A stretch of DNA of 64,000 nt from NCBI RefSeq assembly GCF_005796205.1, contig NZ_VAHN01000005.1, positions 62,001 through 126,000 of the forward strand, given 5' to 3'. The notes below the pieces were generated by a model. That model searched no databases, was not told where the DNA came from, and saw only the letters and a list, made by a program, of their open reading frames with translations. Positions 23,154 to 32,068 of this stretch are shown in pieces (positions within the stretch are counted from its first letter, which is position 1; the number at the start of each line of letters is the position of its first letter). Both the position numbers and the translations under genes were made by a program. The DNA is from Pseudarthrobacter sp. NamE2. Its GTDB lineage: Bacteria > Actinomycetota > Actinomycetes > Actinomycetales > Micrococcaceae.

Positions 23154-24202
23154 GCCCCGCAGTGCAGTGGTGGCTTGTCAGCGACCTCCACCTGGACAAC
23201 TCAGACGAGGACCCCAGGTCCCCGGGCAAAGTCCTTCCCGGTTTCCTGCAGCGGAACGTGCCCGCCGCTTCCGGTCCCGGGCAGCACGTCGTCTTTGTCG
23301 GAGACTCTTTCGAACTCGCCGGGCTGGGCGAGGATGAGAGCCTGGCCCGGCTGGAGTCCATTCTCAATTTCCATCAGGAGGCGCTCCGGGCACTGAGGGA
23401 GTGTACGGCACGCGGCGTCCAGCTCCACTTCATGTGCGGCAACCACGACGTGGAGCTGGCACGCCCCTCCGTGGCGGACCGCCTGTCGGTGTCGCTGTCA
23501 CCGGCCGACCCCGGCCGGGTCAGGGTGCACCCCTGGTTCCTGCACGTCCCCGGTGTGCTCGTGGCCGAACACGGGCATCAGCACCACGCGCTGCACCGGA
23601 TACCCGAGGTGCTCCGCACCGCCGTCAACGGCACTGACGAGCTGGGCCTCGCGCCGCTTGCCGCCTGGCATGCCCACGCAACCAAGCCGGCCCTGAGCCG
23701 TGCCGGAGCCCTTGCCCGGGCGTGCCTTCTATCCGAGCAGGCCGAGCGCCGTATCCGGGGACTCGCGTACGACGAGTTGCTGCAACTGGAGTCCGAGCGG
23801 CTCGGGCTTGACGGGGAGGCAGTCCGGGACCTCGCGCGCCTGTCCCGGTTCCGGACCGTCTCGGCGCTCCCTGTTGCCGCGACCCGTATGGCGCTGGCGG
23901 CGGCAGGCCGCAGCATCGCCAGGGAACATGCGCCGGCTGCAGCTGGCCGGGTCGCAAGGACACTGCAGTCGCATGGTGTGGCAGTGCCCTGGTATATCTC
24001 GGCCCACACCCACCGCGCCCTCGAATCGCCCCTTGAGGACTGCCCCACCCGGTACATCAACACCGGTACGTGGAGCTCGGACGTGCGCGGCCACGGGCCC
24101 GACCAGGCGGACCAGCGGGCGTTCCCGTATGCCCTGGTGGAGGTCGCGGAGGACGGCAGCATCAGTGGCGGTCTGCGGTACTGGCGGCCGGACGCGTGGT
24201 GA
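23150..24202 (+). CDS. Metallophosphoesterase
   Basis: A 350-residue calcineurin-like phosphoesterase. The metal-binding blocks are visible in order: WLVSDLHLDN (Asp12, His14), VFVGDSFELAG (the usual GDxxD reads GDSFE), MCGNHDVEL, AEHGHQHH and SAHTHRALES, ending with INTGTWSSD. A helical insert of about 120 residues separates the GHQHH and HTHR blocks. Last gene of the polysaccharide run, starting with GTG in a 4-base overlap. It may dephosphorylate a lipid carrier, nucleotide sugar or the product of the kinase-like protein in the same operon; the substrate is not shown by sequence. Confidence 0.8.
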   Translation: MSPAVQWWLVSDLHLDNSDEDPRSPGKVLPGFLQRNVPAASGPGQHVVFVGDSFELAGLGEDESLARLESILNFHQEALRALRECTARGVQLHFMCGNHDVELARPSVADRLSVSLSPADPGRVRVHPWFLHVPGVLVAEHGHQHHALHRIPEVLRTAVNGTDELGLAPLAAWHAHATKPALSRAGALARACLLSEQAERRIRGLAYDELLQLESERLGLDGEAVRDLARLSRFRTVSALPVAATRMALAAAGRSIAREHAPAAAGRVARTLQSHGVAVPWYISAHTHRALESPLEDCPTRYINTGTWSSDVRGHGPDQADQRAFPYALVEVAEDGSISGGLRYWRPDAW

Positions 24203-24408
24203 ACCTATAGCCTCCCGCGGTGCCACCGGAGCTGCCGCCGGGAGGTTTTCCACATAGCCGCGCGTGGGCACATGCCCGTCCCGAATAGCCGCTAGGCTCA
24301 AAGTCAAGCACAAATCGCCTAACCGGCCCAAATGCACTAAGATATTGAAGTCTGTGCTGCGTCCTGCCTCCATTCCGGCGGCGGGGCTTTGCACAGCATC
24401 GCAAATGA

Positions 24409-24453
24409 ACCTCCTGTTACGGAAAGACCGTAACCGCTTAGCCCAAAGGAGGT
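24409..24453 (+). promoter_or_regulatory. Candidate leader RNA controlling rpsF translation
   Basis: GTTACGG (24416-24422) and CCGTAAC (24428-24434) form a perfect 7-bp stem with loop AAAGA. Directly before it, ACCTCCT (24409-24415) is complementary to AGGAGGT (24447-24453), the rpsF ribosome binding site, so a longer helix could hide that site. Leaders bound by the S6:S18 complex are known before rpsF in many bacteria; whether this is that motif or a local structure is inferred from position and pairing. Confidence 0.5.
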
Positions 24454-24463
24454 GGGTTCACAT

Positions 24464-24769
24464 ATGCGTCCTTACGAATTGATGGTAATCATCGACCCCG
24501 AGGTCGAAGAGCGTACCGTTGAGCCGTCGCTTCAGAAGTTCCTGAACGTCATCACCAACGATGGTGGAACCATCGAAAAGGTTGACATCTGGGGCCGTCG
24601 CCGTCTGGCTTACGACATCAAGAAGAAGTCCGAAGGTATCTACGCCGTGGTTAACTTCACCGCCACGCCGGACACCGCCAAGGAACTTGACCGCCAGCTG
24701 TCTCTGAACGAGACCATCATGCGCACCAAGATCATCCGCCCCGAAGAGCAGAAGGTTGTTGCTGAGTAA
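24464..24769 (+). CDS. rpsF: 30S ribosomal protein S6
   Basis: A 101-residue S6 protein, a small-subunit component that binds 16S rRNA with S18. The start [17 protein letters not shown] and the central [23 protein letters not shown] are diagnostic. ATG 24464 has AAAGGAGGT about 10 bases upstream; the frame extends back to 24452 but MGSH would be spurious. First gene of the rpsF-ssb-rpsR-rplI cluster, a conserved bacterial order. A pairing RNA leader precedes it. Confidence 0.97.
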
Positions 24770-24846
24770 TCTCGGCGCCGAACTTCAATCTTTACCCCGC
24801 AGGAAACGCACTCTTCACCCATAAGGCTCGAACAAGGAGGCAGTAG

Positions 24847-25416
24847 ATGGCAGGCGAAACCACCATTACGGTCATCGGTAACCTCACCAATGACCCGGAA
24901 TTGCGGTTCACACCGTCCGGTTCGGCAGTAGCGAACTTCACCATCGCTTCCACTCCGCGCACCTTTGACCGACAGTCCAACGAGTGGAAGGACGGGGAAA
25001 CCCTGTTCCTCCGCGCTGCAGTCTGGCGTGAAGCTGCCGAGAACGTCGCGGAATCCCTGACCAAGGGCACACGCGTCATCGTGACCGGCCGGTTGAAGAG
25101 CCGTTCCTACGAAACCAAAGAAGGCGAAAAGCGCACTGTCATTGAGCTTGAGGTCGAAGAAATCGGCCCCAGCCTGCGCTACGCCAATGCCAAGGTAAAC
25201 CGCACCCAGCGCTCAGGCGGACAGGGCGGTTTTGGCGGCGGCAACAGCGGCGGTGGCTTCGGAGGCGGCAACCCTGGCGGAAACCAGGGCGGCAACTCCG
25301 GTGGGGGCTGGGGCGGCGGCAACCAGCAGGCTGCACAGGACGATCCCTGGGCTACGCCCGGCGTCTCCAGCGCAGGCGGCTGGGGCAACGGCCCCGATTC
25401 CGAACCTCCCTTCTAA
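24847..25416 (+). CDS. ssb: Single-stranded DNA-binding protein
   Basis: A 189-residue SSB that coats single-stranded DNA in replication and repair. Residues 1-110 form the OB fold, starting [20 protein letters not shown] and including ATPRTFDR-like [16 protein letters not shown] and the [12 protein letters not shown] strand. Residues 118-165 form a Gly/Gln/Asn-rich flexible linker, and the acidic tip DSEPPF is the protein-interaction tail. Located between rpsF and rpsR, the usual place. AAGGAGG precedes ATG 24847. Confidence 0.97.
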
Positions 25417-25500
25417 CAACCAATAACGGCCCGACGCCGGGACCGCAGCAGGCGCCTTACGGCACCTGGGCGGCTGCCGCCGTCGGACCACCACCATCCC

Positions 25501-25516
25501 GTGGATCACAATCCAC
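25501..25516 (+). promoter_or_regulatory. Short hairpin before rpsR
   Basis: GTGGAT (25501-25506), loop CACA and ATCCAC (25511-25516) form a perfect 6-bp stem 26 bases before the rpsR start. It could influence rpsR translation or mRNA processing; no further support is visible. Confidence 0.35.
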
Positions 25517-25542
25517 GGGCTCCAAAGAATAGGAGCTCCACG

Positions 25543-25782
25543 ATGGCTAAGGCTGAACTCCGTAAGCCCAAACCAAAGTCCAACCCCTTGAAGGCCGCTG
25601 ACATCACTGTCATCGACTACAAGGACGTAGCATTGCTGCGCAAGTTCATCTCCGACCGCGGCAAGATCCGCGCCCGTCGCGTCACCGGCGTCACGGTCCA
25701 GGAACAGCGCAAGATCGCCCAGGCAATCAAGAACGCCCGCGAAGTTGCTCTGCTGCCTTACTCCGGCGCTGGCCGCGGCTAA
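25543..25782 (+). CDS. rpsR: 30S ribosomal protein S18, cysteine-free form
   Basis: A 79-residue S18 protein, partner of S6 on the small subunit. The core [27 protein letters not shown]-type sequence is diagnostic, as is the end [10 protein letters not shown]. The N-terminal part [14 protein letters not shown] lacks the cysteines found in zinc-binding S18 proteins, so this is the zinc-free form. ATAGGAG lies 9 bases before ATG 25543; the longer frame from 25501 is not used. Seventeen bases separate it from rplI. Confidence 0.96.
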
Positions 25783-25799
25783 GGAAGGGATTAACTAAC

Positions 25800-26252
25800 A
25801 TGGCAAAGCTCATTCTGACCCACGAAGTAACCGGTCTCGGTGCTGCTGGCGATGTTGTCGAGGTCAAGGACGGTTACGCACGTAACTACCTGCTGCCCCG
25901 CAACTTCGCCCTGACCTGGTCGAAGGGCGGCGAGAAGCAGGTTGAGTCCATCAAGGCTGCCCGCGCTGCCCGCGAGCACGCTTCCCTGGAAGACGCTCAG
26001 AAGCAGGCCGCCGCACTGCAGTCCAAGCCTGTCCAGCTGGTCGTCAAGGCCGGCGAGACCGGACGCCTCTTCGGCACCGTCAAGCAGGGCGACGTCGCTG
26101 ACGCTGTTGAGGCCGCAGGCCTTGGCAAGATCGACAAGCGCAAGGTCGAGCTGCCTGCCCACATCAAGTCGGTTGGTACCTACCAGGCCAACGTCCGTCT
26201 GCACGAGGACGTCGCCGCGGTAATCGAGCTCGACGTGGTGGCTGGCAAGTAG
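25800..26252 (+). CDS. rplI: 50S ribosomal protein L9
   Basis: A 150-residue L9, a large-subunit protein with two globular domains joined by a long helix. The N-terminal domain [33 protein letters not shown] matches the L9 signature. The middle helix (about 40-75) is Lys/Ala/Glu rich, and the C-terminal domain contains [22 protein letters not shown] lies before ATG 25800. Last gene of the ribosomal cluster; a strong terminator follows. Confidence 0.97.
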
Positions 26253-26275
26253 TTTTTACTGCTGCTGCATAAGGA

Positions 26276-26312
26276 GACCCCCGCTGCCGGATTCCGGCGG
26301 CGGGGGTCTTTT
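26276..26312 (+). terminator. Rho-independent terminator after rplI
   Basis: GACCCCCGCTGCCGG (26276-26290) pairs with CCGGCGGCGGGGGTC (26294-26308) over 15 bp with one G-U pair and a 3-base loop, followed by TTTT (26309-26312). It lies 24 bases after the rplI stop and is the clearest terminator in the window. Confidence 0.88.
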
Positions 26313-26319
26313 GTGTCCG

Positions 26320-27029
26320 TGCCGTTGCCTTCGCGGCCGGTGGTAGCCTGCAGCGGTCCGAAAACACGTTCCTGCTGCCGCCTGCCGATTCCCGCGCCGA
26401 CTACCGCGTACGCATCTTCACCGGGAGCGAGGAGTTCCCCTTCGCCGGACATCCTACGCTGGGTTCTGCGCATGCCTGGCTTGATTCCGGCGGTAATCCG
26501 AGGGAGGAGGGCTACGTGGTGCAGGAATGCGGCGCAGGTCTGGTGCGGATAAAGCACGACGGCGGTCGGCTGGCTTTCGCAGCACCCCCGCTCACGCGGT
26601 ACGAACCGGTGGACGCTGTGCTGAAACGGCAGTTGGCTTAGGCGCTGTGCCTGTCCGAGGCGGATATCCTCGCTGCTTCATGGCTGGTGAACGGCCCCGA
26701 ATGGATCGGTGTGCTGCTGCGGTCCGCAGGCCAGGTCCTCGCCCTTGATCCGGACTTGGCGGCGATGGGCAAACTGAAGGTGGGGGTCATTGGCGCACAT
26801 GGGGCCGGGGGCGGACGCCGACTTTGAAGTGCGTGCGTTCATTCCCGGCGATGCAATGCTGGAGGACCCAGTGACCGGCAGCTTCAACGCCGGCAGGGCC
26901 CCGCGATTACGTGGCAGCGCAGGGATCTTTGCTTGGCCGGCCGGCCGGATCCACATCAAGGCCGACTCCGGCGGACTCAGGGTGGGCGGGAATTCCACCA
27001 CCTGCATCAGGGGAACGTTGAGGCTCTAG
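26320..27029 (+). pseudogene. Degraded PhzF-family isomerase gene
   Basis: Conceptual translation matches PhzF/phenazine-biosynthesis-like isomerases but in pieces. The first frame gives SENTFLLPPADSRADYRVRIF, then EEFPFAGHPTLGSAHAWL; the expected N-terminal 40-50 residues are almost gone. A TAG stops the frame at 26639-26641, after which the same frame resumes with LCLSEADILAASWLVNG. Near 26800 the homology shifts to another frame (ADFEVRAFIPGD, EDPVTGSFNAG) and ends at TAG 27027-27029. A further short deletion follows GSFNAG. PhzF enzymes isomerise or cyclise small substrates; this copy cannot be functional. It sits directly behind the rplI terminator. Confidence 0.82.
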
Positions 27030-27106
27030 GGCTGCCGCGGCTCCGCCCCTGGTGTGCCAGATCGGGGGCGGGAATACTTCCGCTGCACCCGCAGTTCAGA
27101 AGGTAG

Positions 27107-27118
27107 ATGCAAATGCAT
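27107..27118. promoter_or_regulatory. Inverted repeat before the FMN reductase gene
   Basis: ATGCA (27107-27111), AA, TGCAT (27114-27118) is a perfect short inverted repeat 33 bases before the reductase start. It may be an operator for a dimeric regulator; this is based on symmetry and position only. Confidence 0.3.
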
Positions 27119-27150
27119 GTACGATGATAAGCGAGCAATAGGAGAATGCC

Positions 27151-27777
27151 ATGGAAACCCGCCGCGTCACAGTCCTGTCCGCCGGTCTCGGCGTCCCCTC
27201 GTCAAGCCGCCTGTTGGCTGATCAGCTCGCGGCCTCCGCGCGGCGGCAGCTGGCGGCAGCGGGGTATGACGTGACGGTCGACGTCGTCGAACTCCGTGAC
27301 GTGGCCGTGGATATCGCCAACAACTTCGTAACCGGCTATGCCGCCCCCGGCCTCGCCGAGGTCATCGCCGGGGTGGAGGCCTCCGACGGCATCATCGCCG
27401 TCACGCCTGTCTTCAGCGCTTCCTACAGCGGCCTGTTCAAATCGTTCTTCGATGTCCTCGATCCCAAGTCCCTGGACGGCAAGGCAGTCCTGCTCGGCGC
27501 CACCGGCGGGACCGACCGCCACCAGATGGTCCTGGACTACGCCCTGAGGCCGCTCTTCAGCTACCTGCGCACACGCATCACAGCCACGGGTGTTTTCGCC
27601 GGTCCCCAGGATTGGGGCACGGCGGACGACGGCGGGTCCTTCCTTGCGGACCGCATCGAACGCGCGGCCGGCGAGTTCGCCGGGCTGCTCGACGGGCCGC
27701 AGCCCGGCCGCAAGCCCGCCCCCATGGAGTCCCTGCCCTTCGAACAGCTGCTGGCCGGGATTTCGGGCAACCGCTGA
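27151..27777 (+). CDS. NADPH-dependent FMN reductase-like flavoprotein
   Basis: A 208-residue flavodoxin-fold protein of the FMN_red family, in the form found in actinobacteria (CE1759 type). The N-terminal strand VTVLSAGLGVPSSSRLLADQL holds the phosphate-binding loop, and ITPVFSAS-like AVTPVFSASYSGLFKSFFDVLD is the family's second flavin-contact region. LLGATGGTDRHQMVLDYALRPLF follows. Such proteins transfer electrons from NAD(P)H to FMN, often feeding a partner monooxygenase; none is adjacent. AATAGGAGAATGCC gives a good ribosome binding site before ATG 27151. Confidence 0.85.
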   Translation: METRRVTVLSAGLGVPSSSRLLADQLAASARRQLAAAGYDVTVDVVELRDVAVDIANNFVTGYAAPGLAEVIAGVEASDGIIAVTPVFSASYSGLFKSFFDVLDPKSLDGKAVLLGATGGTDRHQMVLDYALRPLFSYLRTRITATGVFAGPQDWGTADDGGSFLADRIERAAGEFAGLLDGPQPGRKPAPMESLPFEQLLAGISGNR

Positions 27778-27827
27778 CGGTCGGCCTTTGAACGAACCAT
27801 CCGGACGCCCCGGTCGTTAGGCGGAAC

Positions 27828-28166
27828 ATGAAGTGTCCCGTGGATTCCGTGGACCTGCTCATGACCGAGCGCAGCGGGGTGGAAATCGACTACTGTCCGC
27901 AGTGCCGGGGTGTATGGCTGGACCGTGGCGAGCTGGACAAGATCCTGGACCGCGCCCAGGACATGATGCCTGGCCCCGCGCCCGCCCGGCCGGCAACGCC
28001 GGCCCCGGGCTCCACCCCGCCGCCGCTCTACCCCAACTTCGATCCCGGGCGGAGCCAGCCGCGCTATGACGACCGCAAGTACGGCAAGCAGGGGTACGAC
28101 CGGGACCATGACCGCCGCCGGCGCAAAAAGAATGAAGGCTGGCTGGGCGAGCTGTTCGACTTCTAG
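27828..28166 (+). CDS. Zinc-ribbon protein, zf-TFIIB type
   Basis: A 112-residue protein with an N-terminal zf-TFIIB-like ribbon: MKCPVD at the start and IDYCPQCRGVWLDRGELDKIL at about 20-40. The first knuckle has a single cysteine (Cys3), with Asp6 where a second Cys would be; the second has Cys23 and Cys26. The middle (50-75) is Pro/Ala rich and the tail is strongly charged (YDRDHDRRRRKKNEGWLGELFDF). Role unknown; it could bind a metal or nucleic acid. Convergent with the gene that follows on the minus strand. Confidence 0.75.
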   Translation: MKCPVDSVDLLMTERSGVEIDYCPQCRGVWLDRGELDKILDRAQDMMPGPAPARPATPAPGSTPPPLYPNFDPGRSQPRYDDRKYGKQGYDRDHDRRRRKKNEGWLGELFDF

Positions 28167-28188
28167 GTGCGGCAGGCCGCCGGCGCAC

Positions 28189-28758
28189 CTAGTCGTCCAG
28201 CAGCTCGATGAACTCCCGTGCCTGCTTCATTGAGATGTCCGAGTGCCTTGTCAGCGCCGTGGCTGCGGCTTCCCGGTCCCCGTTCCGGGCCAGGGTGCGG
28301 ATCCTGCCGTAGATCTCGTCGTTGAGCATGTTGCTGCTGACCTCACGGGTCACGTCGCCCTTGCTGGCGATGGCCCGGTAGCGGTACGGGAACCGCTGGG
28401 GCTCGTCGTCGTCATCCTCCTCCGGCGCCGCAGGGGTCTCAGGGCTCCGGTAGGGCTGGGGATGGGCCGCCAGCGCCCCGATGGCGTCGCGGGAGGCGCG
28501 CAGGCCGTCGCCAGTGATCTCGTAGTACAGCTTGATTGCGGCCATCGCCTGTCCCTGCGCGATGAGCGCGTAGAGCCGCCGGTGCTCGTTTTCGGACAAC
28601 TTGGCGGCTGCCGCCCGGGCCAGTTCCGCTGAGGTTGCCGCCGGCTGTACGGGTACGGCATCCCGCGTGGCCTTCCTTTTGCCCAGCACACGGACAGCCA
28701 GGGCGACGCCTGCAACCACGGCGAGGAGGATAAGGACAGGGACCACAAGCGATTCCAT
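28189..28758 (-). CDS. Membrane-anchored protein with L7/L12-like segment
   Basis: A 189-residue protein with one N-terminal membrane anchor (LVVPVLILLAVVAGVALAVRVL) and a cytoplasmic body. Residues about 70-95, IKLYYEITGDGLRASRDAIG, resemble the helix-turn of ribosomal L7/L12 C-terminal domains, where related bacterial proteins share EAIKLYREVTGLGLKEA. A run of Asp/Glu follows (APEEDDDDEPQ), then a C-terminal helical domain ending FIELLDD. Function unknown. ATG at 28758 is used; a TTG three codons further upstream is also in frame. Shares a strand and probably a transcript with the small membrane protein before it. Confidence 0.65.
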   Translation of the reverse strand: MESLVVPVLILLAVVAGVALAVRVLGKRKATRDAVPVQPAATSAELARAAAAKLSENEHRRLYALIAQGQAMAAIKLYYEITGDGLRASRDAIGALAAHPQPYRSPETPAAPEEDDDDEPQRFPYRYRAIASKGDVTREVSSNMLNDEIYGRIRTLARNGDREAAATALTRHSDISMKQAREFIELLDD

Positions 28759-28773
28759 CGTTCTCAAACCGTT

Positions 28774-29046
28774 CTATCTATGTTCCGGCCGGGGCCAGAC
28801 CTGGCTGCCCGTGTCATGTTGCGGGGCGTTGGGAGACCGGTGGGTCCTGGCCTCGATGCGGGCCCGTGCAGCCGTGGCGGCTTCGACCTGTGCTGCATAG
28901 TGCCTGGCCGACCGCTCGGCCAGGTCCCGCTGATACTTTTCCGCGTCGGACATGCCGGCGTCCCGCGGGCTCAAGGCCGTCATCAGACCCCAGATGAGCG
29001 CCACCAGGATAATTGCAGGCAACAGCACCAGCAGTAGTTCGCCCAT
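28774..29046 (-). CDS. Small membrane protein, unknown function
   Basis: A 90-residue protein with one N-terminal membrane segment (ELLLVLLPAIILVALIWGLM, about residues 3-22) followed by a helical, charged body (SDAEKYQRDLAERSARHYAA) and a polar tail. No family recognised. It is divergent from dnaB across a 656-base gap and lies 15 bases before the L7/L12-like gene, so both minus-strand genes are probably one unit whose promoter lies in the DnaA-box-rich region. Confidence 0.6.
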   Translation of the reverse strand: MGELLLVLLPAIILVALIWGLMTALSPRDAGMSDAEKYQRDLAERSARHYAAQVEAATAARARIEARTHRSPNAPQHDTGSQVWPRPEHR

Positions 29047-29702
29047 ACTTAGAGCTTATGCCACATCGACTTTATCCACAGCAATATTCGCCTGCCTGCA
29101 TGCAGGTTTAGTGAAGGCGTGGGATGGAGTCAGCACGTGGAATATGAGAATCGCCACTTCACCTCTTCGCGAGGCCTTGAATGAGTGCGTCATGGTGTCC
29201 CCGCTCCTCACCGGATCACAAGCCTGTGGATGAAATTCCACAGAAGAAATATTTACTCCACAGGGTGGAGGCAACGTTTTCGCAGGTCAGTGGGGGGTAA
29301 CAAGGGAAAGATTTTTTATATCCACAGGGTTCCGCACAGACTGTGCACAAGCTATGCCCTTTACTGCACAGGTTATCCACAAGCGCGCAGGTTTCCCGGC
29401 TTTGCGGCCGGGGCGTAGACAGTTAGCGTAGCGGGGTACCTGTTTTTGAGGCGGAAAAGGGAGCCCCGCCGGACGCGAAAACGCAACCGACGGCTGCCGG
29501 ATAACTCCCAAAAAGGGCTCCTGTGGAAAACCTGTGGACATTGGGGATAACTTCCACAAAGGCCTTGCGGGAACCGTTGCGGCAATGTCGGACCCGGCAG
29601 GTAGACCTGATGGGAAGGCGGAGCACGGACTACCGGGCGAGCCCCCGACAGGACGAATAGTTTCCGGGCAACCCAGCCCGGTACAAGTGGAGGACGGCAG
29701 CA
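29047..29702. other. Intergenic region with DnaA-box-like cluster before dnaB
   Basis: This 656-base divergent region has no gene I can support. It holds three exact matches to the DnaA-box consensus TTWTNCACA: TTATCCACA at 29072-29080 and 29373-29381 on the + strand, and TTTTCCACA at 29522-29530 on the minus strand. One-mismatch sites are TCATCCACA (29225-29233, minus), ATATCCACA (29318-29326), TTGTGCACA (29342-29350, minus) and TTATCCCCA (29542-29550, minus). AT-rich patches near 29245-29258 and 29311-29322 lie between them. It must also hold promoters for dnaB and the minus-strand genes. Confidence 0.65.
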
Positions 29703-31082
29703 TTGTCAATTGCGCATCTGGACCCGGTGGAGACTACCCGCGGATCAGACACAAGCCGGAAGCCACCCCAGGACATCGCTGCAGAGCAGTCAGTCCTCGG
29801 CGGCATGATGCTCTCTAAGGATGCCATTGCAGACGTAGTGGAAATTCTGCGCGGCCAGGACTTTTACCGGCCGGCGCACGAAACCATCTACGAAGCCGTC
29901 ATTGACCTGTACGGCCGGGGTGAGCCCGCAGATGCCGTCACTGTCTCCGATGAACTGACCAAGCGCGGGGAAATCAACAGGATCGGCGGGCCCGCTTACC
30001 TCCACGAACTGATCCAGACAGTTCCCACCGCTGCCAACGCCGGGTACTACGCCGAAATCGTGGCCGAGCGCGCCGTCCTTCGGCGCCTTGTGAACGCCGG
30101 CACCAAAATCGTACAGCTGGGCTACGGCTCAGACGGCGAGGTGGAGGACCTGGTCAACCAGGCCCAGGCCGAGGTCTACGCGGTGGCGGAACGGCGCACA
30201 GCCGAGGATTACGTTGTCCTCAAGGACGTCATGGAATCCACCGTGGACGAGATCGAGGCTTCCGGCCACCGCGGTGAAGGCATGGTGGGCGTCCCTACCG
30301 GGTTCTACGAGCTCGATGAACTGACCCACGGCCTGCATCCCGGCCAGATGATCGTCATCGCGGCGCGCCCCGCCGTCGGCAAGTCCACGTTCGCCCTGGA
30401 CTTTGCCCGTTCCGCTGCCATCAAGAACAACTTGGCCACTGTCATGTTTTCCCTCGAAATGGGCCGGAACGAGATTGCGATGCGCCTGCTGTCCGCGGAG
30501 GCCACCATCAGCCTCCAGGACCTCCGGAAGGGGACCATCAAGGACGAGCAATGGTCCAAGATCGCCACCACCATGGGGCGCATGAACGACGCTCCACTGT
30601 TCATTGACGACAGCCCCAACATGTCTCTCATGGAAATCCGGGCCAAATGCCGCCGCCTCAAGCAGCAGCATGACCTCAAGCTCGTGGTACTGGACTACCT
30701 GCAGCTGATGAGCTCCGGCAAGAAGGTAGAGTCCCGCCAGCAGGAAGTCTCCGAGTTTTCCCGTGCACTGAAGCTGCTGGCCAAGGAACTCCAGGTCCCG
30801 GTCATCGCCCTGTCCCAGCTGAACCGTGGCTCGGAGCAGCGCCAGGACAAGCGGCCCATGGTTTCGGACCTCCGCGAGTCCGGCTCCATCGAGCAGGACG
30901 CGGACATGGTGATCCTCCTCCACCGCGAGGACGTCTACGACAAGGAATCACCCCGCGCCGGGGAAGCCGACATCCTTGTGGCCAAGCACCGTAATGGCCC
31001 CACCAAGGACATTGTTGTCGCATTCCAGGGCCACTATTCGCGCTTTGCCAACATGGCCGGCGACACCGGCGGCGGCTTCTAG
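29703..31082 (+). CDS. dnaB: Replicative DNA helicase
   Basis: A 459-residue DnaB, the ring helicase that unwinds DNA at the replication fork and recruits primase. The N-terminal domain begins PPQDIAAEQSVLGGMMLSKDA; the RecA-like ATPase has Walker A ARPAVGKSTFALDFARSAA (Lys227), then FSLEMGRNEIAMRLLS, Walker B LKLVVLDYLQLM, and the ALSQLNRGSEQR and SGSIEQDADMVILLHR motifs. There is no sign of an intein. The TTG start at 29703 has GGAGG 9 bases upstream. Its stop overlaps the convergent thioesterase stop by 4 bases. Confidence 0.97.
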   Translation: MSIAHLDPVETTRGSDTSRKPPQDIAAEQSVLGGMMLSKDAIADVVEILRGQDFYRPAHETIYEAVIDLYGRGEPADAVTVSDELTKRGEINRIGGPAYLHELIQTVPTAANAGYYAEIVAERAVLRRLVNAGTKIVQLGYGSDGEVEDLVNQAQAEVYAVAERRTAEDYVVLKDVMESTVDEIEASGHRGEGMVGVPTGFYELDELTHGLHPGQMIVIAARPAVGKSTFALDFARSAAIKNNLATVMFSLEMGRNEIAMRLLSAEATISLQDLRKGTIKDEQWSKIATTMGRMNDAPLFIDDSPNMSLMEIRAKCRRLKQQHDLKLVVLDYLQLMSSGKKVESRQQEVSEFSRALKLLAKELQVPVIALSQLNRGSEQRQDKRPMVSDLRESGSIEQDADMVILLHREDVYDKESPRAGEADILVAKHRNGPTKDIVVAFQGHYSRFANMAGDTGGGF

Positions 31083-32068
31083 GAAACCTCGCCGGCCGCC
31101 GCCTGCTGAAGCAGATGGTTCGGTAGCCGGTTACCCGGCGCGGCCGCGCGGATTTCCAGCAGTTCGCGTGCATGCGCGTGCAGGCGCTTATCCTCGTCGC
31201 TGACCGGCACCCACGCGGGGATCGCCACCGACGTGCCCTCGTCGTCGCGCGCCACCATAACCGTGAGGCAGTACGTGGTGAGGTTCAGTTCGCGGCCCTT
31301 GGGGTCTCCTGAGCGGACGTGGACGGCGATGTGCATGCCCTTGGTGCCGGTATACACAAGCCTGGCCTCCACCTCCACCACGTGCCCGATCAGTAGCGGA
31401 CGGTAGAAGCGGACGCCGCCGGAGAAGACTGCCACGGTGTCCCTGCCGCAATAGCGGGATGCGCAGACGTAGGCGGCCTCATCGATCCATTTCATGACGA
31501 TCCCGCCGTGTACCTTGCCACCCCAGTTCACGTCCGTGGGCGCTGCCATGAACCGCAGCGTCACTCTTTCCGCCGTTCCCGCATCGGTATATTCCTGGCG
31601 GTTCATGGCTTCCACGATCTGTTCGCGAACCTTGATCCGGGCAAGGGCGTGGTCCCGCTGTTCAATCTCCGCCGGCGTGACGGGCTCGAACTGCGGCACG
31701 GGAATCGGCTTTCCGTCCTGCCCGACGGCCACGAAGATCACCATGCACTGGCTTCGCATAGTGGCTGGACCGCCCTTGGGATCTCCTGAGGACACCACCG
31801 TGTGGATATGCATGGAGGAACGGCCCGTGTACACGATGGTGGCCTCCACCTCCACCATGTCGCCGCTGTTGACGGGATCCGCGAAGTGGATGTTTCCCAC
31901 GTAGGCGGTGACGCAGTAGGACTTGGCCCATCCCACGGCCGCGGCATAGGCGGCCTTGTCCACCCACTCCAGCACGGTGCCGGCGTCAACGGACCCGCTG
32001 TGGCCCACGTCGGTGGGGGCGGCCAGGAATCGGAGGGTCACAGAGTTCGGGGTGCCGGTCCGGGTCAT
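31079..32068 (-). CDS. Acyl-CoA thioesterase with two hotdog domains
   Basis: A 329-residue cytosolic thioesterase that hydrolyses acyl-CoA. Two hotdog domains repeat: TLRFLAAPTDVGHSGSVDAG (about 11-30) and TLRFMAAPTDVNWGGKVHGG (about 170-190), each followed by a VEVEA strand and a TGRSSMHIHTVV or TGTKGMHIAVHV strand and a SGDPKG turn. The second domain carries the usual His-Gly-Gly motif; the first has Asp-Ala-Gly, so only one may be catalytic. ATG 32068 gives the natural N-terminus; the much longer open frame upstream is an artefact of GC-rich DNA. Stop codons of this gene and dnaB overlap. Confidence 0.85.
   Translation of the reverse strand: MTRTGTPNSVTLRFLAAPTDVGHSGSVDAGTVLEWVDKAAYAAAVGWAKSYCVTAYVGNIHFADPVNSGDMVEVEATIVYTGRSSMHIHTVVSSGDPKGGPATMRSQCMVIFVAVGQDGKPIPVPQFEPVTPAEIEQRDHALARIKVREQIVEAMNRQEYTDAGTAERVTLRFMAAPTDVNWGGKVHGGIVMKWIDEAAYVCASRYCGRDTVAVFSGGVRFYRPLLIGHVVEVEARLVYTGTKGMHIAVHVRSGDPKGRELNLTTYCLTVMVARDDEGTSVAIPAWVPVSDEDKRLHAHARELLEIRAAAPGNRLPNHLLQQAAAGEVS

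Follow-up and report, generated by a model that had tools for sequence, protein, structure and literature searches.

DnaA binding upstream of dnaB is already known in Mycobacterium, where DnaA was found at this place by affinity sequencing in M. tuberculosis and by ChIP in M. smegmatis, and where a DnaA mutant with reduced binding upstream of dnaB uniquely under-expresses dnaB (PMC7738170). The dnaB gene of Caulobacter crescentus also belongs to the DnaA regulon (Hottes et al. 2005, cited by PMC8203912 and PMC7738170). In the titles and abstracts of the open-access papers searched on DnaA with sites upstream of dnaB or with box clusters, a fixed, class-wide arrangement was not found. Here, we describe a cluster of DnaA boxes upstream of dnaB in Pseudarthrobacter sp. 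NamE2, in which boxes, spacing, a promoter-like sequence and their conservation are read directly from the DNA. The cluster is likely to be a dnaB promoter under the control of DnaA, probably activated by it, and conserved across the class; DnaA binding at these boxes, the start site and the sign of the regulation are what we infer from that arrangement. Since the box cluster stands at fixed distances before a promoter-like sequence in many actinobacteria, the initiator DnaA probably also controls the amount of helicase that is made. If true, initiator control of helicase supply would be a feature of a whole bacterial class and not of a single species.

The genome comprises 4,035,682 bases in 64 contigs, and the window (the whole stretch of 64,000 nucleotides that was analysed) corresponds to C45:62001-126000. 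The replicative helicase gene dnaB occupies positions 29703-31082 of the plus strand, has a TTG start preceded by GGAGG at 29689-29693, and is recognized by Pfam through PF00772 and PF03796; its closest named DnaB matches come from Arthrobacter strains, several of them with 95-98% identity. Divergent from dnaB, a small ORF of 90 aa (28774-29046, minus strand) encodes a hydrophobic N-terminus and has no Pfam match. The window's own contig also carries dnaA (C45:41591-43015) and the dnaA-dnaN intergenic region, the expected oriC (C45:41248-41590), at about 50 kb from dnaB. A single exact TTTTCCACA is found at 24246-24254 of the window, about 600 bp before ssb. Two other readings of the box region were discarded: ORFs as long as 140 aa run across it, but it is the boxes that agree across relatives while the rest drifts, and the four Rfam matches over 24000-32000, one of them inside the box region, are all under the gathering score for a structured RNA.

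The earlier note had claimed three exact TTWTNCACA matches and at least four sites with one mismatch within 29072-29550, AT-rich patches between them, and a rarity of such matches in DNA this rich in GC, and all of this is borne out. The exact matches lie at 29072 (plus), 29373 (plus) and 29522 (minus), and the one-mismatch sites at 29225 (minus), 29318 (plus), 29342 (minus) and 29542 (minus), with 20-mers of 75-80% AT within 29233-29255 and 29298-29327. The whole genome holds 74 TTWTNCACA, about one per 54.5 kb, as compared with 38 for the motif read backwards. The 479-bp cluster has a GC content of 54.1% vs 65.5% for the window, but local AT-richness does not explain it, because dinucleotide shuffles of the same 479 bp give means of 0.031 exact sites and 0.72 within one mismatch, and neither the three exact sites nor the seven within one mismatch were reached in 3000 shuffles (the largest number within one mismatch being six). 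The excess is local. Window-wide, 35 sites within one mismatch stand against 27.8 expected, a number reached in 9 of 100 shuffles and thus no clear enrichment; seven of these 35 fall in 29072-29550, and stretches of equal length started at each such site outside the cluster hold at most two. A comparison with the density in ordinary DNA of this genome, which the earlier note had proposed as a refuting test, does not refute the cluster. The region combines DnaA boxes at or near a promoter-like sequence beyond chance with the character of a DnaA-box cluster outside oriC, as in datA or DBC-like sites.

Upstream of dnaB, conservation is highest at the boxes in 18 close relatives, a set made up of the genome itself, 12 same-genus genomes and five named Arthrobacter loci, with no pair more than 87% identical in the region. 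In their alignment over the 680 bp before dnaB, column identity averages 0.64, against 0.96-1.0 at the boxes at 29072, 29225, 29342 and 29373. The first box, TTATCCACA at 29072-29080 (plus; identity 0.96), lies some 25 bp ahead of the divergent small ORF and at a distance from the core that differs among relatives, being 140-152 bp before position 29224 in 17 of them and not measurable in the other; this conserved box may sit in the promoter of the divergent 90-aa ORF. The rigid stretch opens with the DnaA-like box TCATCCACA at 29225-29233 (minus; identity 1.0), which reads CTGTGGATGA on the plus strand from 29224. A conserved motif unrelated to DnaA boxes, GTTTTCGCAGGTCAG at 29276-29290 (plus), follows at a fixed distance before the next boxes and contains GTCA at 29286-29289, which is kept in 17 of 18 family sequences and replaced by TTCA in one. 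A shared regulon marked by this motif was considered and rejected, the degenerate motif being found without mismatch once in the genome itself and with one mismatch at 11 further places (two for the reversed control). Further downstream come the DnaA-like box ATATCCACA at 29318-29326 (plus; identity 0.88), the DnaA-like box TTGTGCACA at 29342-29350 (minus; identity 0.99), which is TGTGCACA on the plus strand, the weak box-like TACTGCACA at 29362-29370 (plus), whose CACA is nearly invariant in the family, and the core DnaA box TTATCCACA at 29373-29381 (plus; identity 0.99). The putative -35 element TTTGCG (29401-29406, plus), which is often TTGG in other genera, and the putative -10 element TAGCGT (29424-29429, plus) would place the start site near 29436. 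Downstream of this predicted start lie a DnaA box, TTTTCCACA at 29522-29530 (minus; identity 0.84), and a DnaA-like box, TTATCCCCA at 29542-29550 (minus; identity 0.75). The core at 29282-29431 contains the GTCA element, DnaA boxes, TGTGCACA and TTATCCACA, together with a putative sigma-A promoter.

Within 29224-29381 the spacing hardly varies. From CTGTGGATGA at 29224 to TGTGCACA there are 118 bp in 17 of the 18 relatives and 119 bp in one, the next spacing is 20 bp in all 18, and a further one is 31 bp in 17, the remaining relative being scored at 20 bp by the script on account of an extra box and showing the usual 31 in the alignment. The distance from the TTATCCACA box to TANCGT, the -10 element, is 51 bp in 14 of the 18, 40 bp in three and 30 bp in one, where the 14 consist of 13 as scored and the relative with the extra box once this is allowed for, and where the box of one genome (G004) is TTTTCCACA. 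Each of these steps is near a whole number of helical turns, but few independent changes underlie them. From the -10 element to the start codon, the distance ranges from 241 to 317 bp. Boxes at fixed positions relative to the promoter are found in the relatives, the promoter itself being a prediction.

The same layout recurs within the family Micrococcaceae. The pattern CCACA-N15-TGTGCACA-N23-TTATCCACA, with up to two mismatches, matches 69 of 149 family genomes in 17 of 32 genera, while its reversed control gives no matches. Twenty of the 71 listed matches were fetched by choice, with all 17 genera represented, and dnaB lies downstream in 18 of them. When the window is stacked without gaps on 17 further sequences, one per genus and with its own genus among them (the two without dnaB downstream and G154 being omitted), parts of the boxes, TGTGCACA and the TCA within the GTCA element show little or no variation. 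In 16 of the 18 sequences a TANNNT begins 51 bp past the TTATCCACA box, in one (g13) 52 bp and in another (g37) 61 bp past it, and no other TANNNT occurs within 20-80 bp after the box in any of them.

Beyond the family, a sequence model recognizes the dnaB control region in the majority of the class genomes sampled. Among 80 named loci, of which 31 are from Streptomyces, the 600 bp preceding dnaB (48 kb in all) hold 171 TTDTNCACA vs 38 in the other 1.505 Mb, and the reversed motif gives 5 and 15, respectively. At least one site is present in these 600 bp in 72 of the 80 loci; counted by genus-level label, at least one occurs in 22 of 26 and at least two in 13 of 26. A family-trained profile matches upstream of dnaB in 74 of the 80 loci (E<=10 per locus), among them all 31 Streptomyces (best E 1.8e-21) and all five Nocardioides (best 3e-15). 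Its matches are strong (best E <=1e-13) in Streptomyces, Kitasatospora, Saccharothrix, Nocardioides, Pedococcus and Diaminobutyricibacter, and weak (best E 0.008-0.8) in Sinomonas, Cellulomonas, an Actinomycetales MAG, Blastococcus, Modestobacter and Bowdeniella; in Rothia, Sediminivirga, Brachybacterium and one uncultured actinobacterium no match is found within 700 bp before dnaB, even when E values up to 10 are admitted. Off the site or on the other strand, the family profile gives 41 matches, and among the best 10 of these, two are from Nesterenkonia and the others have E >=5e-4. In both Nesterenkonia loci (L082 and L090), the core lies 2.9 kb upstream of dnaB, with genes in between, one of them antisense, and there is no site near dnaB. 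With a sequence-only model of the core, 233 of 296 class genomes give a match at E<=0.01, covering 104 of 114 genera, and 63 genomes are left without one at this threshold under stricter filters. Of 50 class matches checked, comprising the 30 best and 20 chosen across families, 49 adjoin dnaB upstream, at 182-465 bp before its extrapolated start, and some of the remaining listed matches may be oriC. In the genome itself, the model at E<=0.01 matches the dnaB region only. Outside the class, 21 more genomes of the phylum match the model; the one examined (L295) has its match between dnaA and dnaN, so these out-of-class matches may be oriC.

The promoter assignment comes from a short and degenerate sequence. 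A strict E. coli-type sigma-70 consensus scan of the region did not find a promoter, and this result was set aside because such a consensus is taken to be too strict for actinobacterial promoters. A -35/-10 pair is found within 65 bp downstream of a box in only 31 of 49 class loci (one locus, L283, being left out as it lacks dnaB). With the commonest offset chosen in each group, a box stands 37-38 bp from a TANNNT in 32 of 32 loci of Streptomyces and Kitasatospora, and 39-40 bp from it in 14 of 15 Microbacteriaceae, L112 being the exception. In the window, the box at 29373-29381 ends 19 bp before the -35-like sequence and starts 51 bp before the -10, which would centre it near -59. Class I activators touch RNA polymerase close to this position. 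Activation is favoured on this ground, and also because the Mycobacterium mutant with less binding under-expresses dnaB, although the direction of regulation would be an analogy drawn from this one mutant.

We propose that DnaA binds several boxes in 29225-29381 and forms a complex of fixed geometry, with a partner protein perhaps sitting beside it at the GTCA element. When occupied by DnaA, this complex would most likely stimulate dnaB transcription, and the supply of helicase would thereby be coupled to initiator activity. The boxes at 29522-29550, behind the predicted start site, could repress dnaB when DnaA is high. The positions of the elements are precise enough for mutation, and the GTCA element would point to a second factor. 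A bolder and less probable version of this proposal is that of an ancient, class-level nucleoprotein switch, in which DnaA, a second protein at GTCA and RNA polymerase would come together on some 150 bp of core. This core would determine how much helicase is supplied and would also signal or tune the activity of DnaA close to the origin; such a dual role would explain why the core is retained even where dnaB has moved away.

At the same promoter DnaA could act instead as a repressor, with the boxes at 29522-29550 and 29373 blocking or trapping RNA polymerase when DnaA is abundant. Boxes do flank the predicted start site on both sides, and DnaA is known to act as activator or repressor and to bind and regulate its own promoter in several bacteria (PMC8203912). 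The best conserved boxes, however, lie upstream of the -35 and not over the promoter, the downstream boxes are the least conserved ones, and in Mycobacterium lower dnaB expression accompanies weaker DnaA binding (PMC7738170), which together make this reading rather unlikely.

Somewhat less likely still is a site near the origin that titrates or remodels DnaA, in the manner of datA, DARS or DBC, with the neighbourhood of dnaB being incidental or secondary. In S. coelicolor and B. subtilis, clusters of DnaA boxes keep initiation from occurring at the wrong time (PMC5742627). The cluster described here lies on the same contig as dnaA-dnaN, some 50 kb from it, and is among the few box clusters of the genome. 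Places with at least two TTWTNCACA within 500 bp, grouped by eye, are C1:455440-455793, near crgA (C45:22671-23742), dnaA-dnaN, the front of dnaA, beside parB (C45:50951-51371) and upstream of dnaB. In four closed same-genus genomes, pairs of TTATCCACA less than 500 bp apart occur only at dnaA-dnaN, near crgA (at a distance of 5.3 kb in G012), some 8-9 kb ahead of dnaA, which corresponds to the place beside parB, and upstream of dnaB, while random placement predicts 0.05-0.14 such pairs per genome; G010 has no pair at dnaB or dnaA-dnaN because each region holds a single exact TTATCCACA. Titration also draws some support from Nesterenkonia, whose core, kept 2.9 kb away from dnaB, may act apart from that gene. 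Titration alone, however, needs neither the fixed distance to a -10-like sequence nor the adjacency to dnaB of nearly all checked class matches, and the cluster near crgA, with more boxes, would titrate more.

That cluster (L031:5671-6742 in locus coordinates; outside the window) is the richest one seen, with 14 sites within one mismatch between crgA, which we take to be Rv0011c, and rhomboid/ppiA (by Pfam). Six to nine TTDTNCACA occur in the 5.2 kb beside crgA in 11 of 12 same-genus relatives, and G012 has three there and more just beyond. Judged by its neighbouring genes, the cluster corresponds to Rv0010c-Rv0011c, a DnaA site of mycobacteria for which an obvious counterpart in other species had not been seen (PMC7738170). 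In the closed relative G001, the minima of GC skew (+20.8 kb) and keto skew (+11.4 kb), with coding bias still included, lie closer to the crgA cluster (+17 to +18 kb) than to dnaA-dnaN. The DnaA boxes at C45:50927-51371, likewise beyond the window, are embedded among six TTTCACGTGAAA (parS-like) sites that form an array around parB, and G001 has eight such sites round the corresponding boxes.

An accessory replication origin is very improbable: several DnaA boxes and two short AT-rich patches do adjoin a helicase gene, and the keto skew of G001 passes through a shallow local minimum near -54 kb, with dnaB at -55 kb, but dnaA-dnaN is present with its own boxes, both main skew minima lie on the other side of dnaA from dnaB, and no clear turn of GC skew is found at dnaB in this one closed genome, over 360 kb round dnaA and with coding bias still included. 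Of the three readings offered by the earlier note, DnaA control of dnaB is thus favoured by the fixed geometry, the class-wide conservation and the binding in Mycobacterium, titration gains some support from Nesterenkonia, and the accessory origin finds no support in the GC skew.

Set beside known systems, the cluster shares with oriC its DnaA boxes and AT-rich patches, but it lies away from dnaA, at a place where the GC skew of a relative shows no clear turn, and it is the only place of the genome that the core model finds at E<=0.01. It is also like the box clusters of S. coelicolor and B. subtilis and like datA of E. coli in having several DnaA boxes outside oriC (PMC5742627); those clusters and datA limit initiation, whereas the core in the window adjoins dnaB and has a promoter-like sequence at a fixed distance. 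Caulobacter crescentus shares predicted DnaA boxes upstream of dnaB, and there dnaB responds to DnaA, but this organism belongs to another phylum, and the likeness covers the predicted boxes and the response to DnaA. The mycobacterial site upstream of dnaB is bound in vitro and in vivo (PMC7738170), whereas the site in the window is known from its sequence. A fixed layout, a putative promoter position and conservation beyond mycobacteria come from the present comparison. Three others of the five mycobacterial DnaA sites, namely oriC, rpmH-dnaA and Rv0010c-Rv0011c, likewise have box clusters in similar gene neighbourhoods of this genome.
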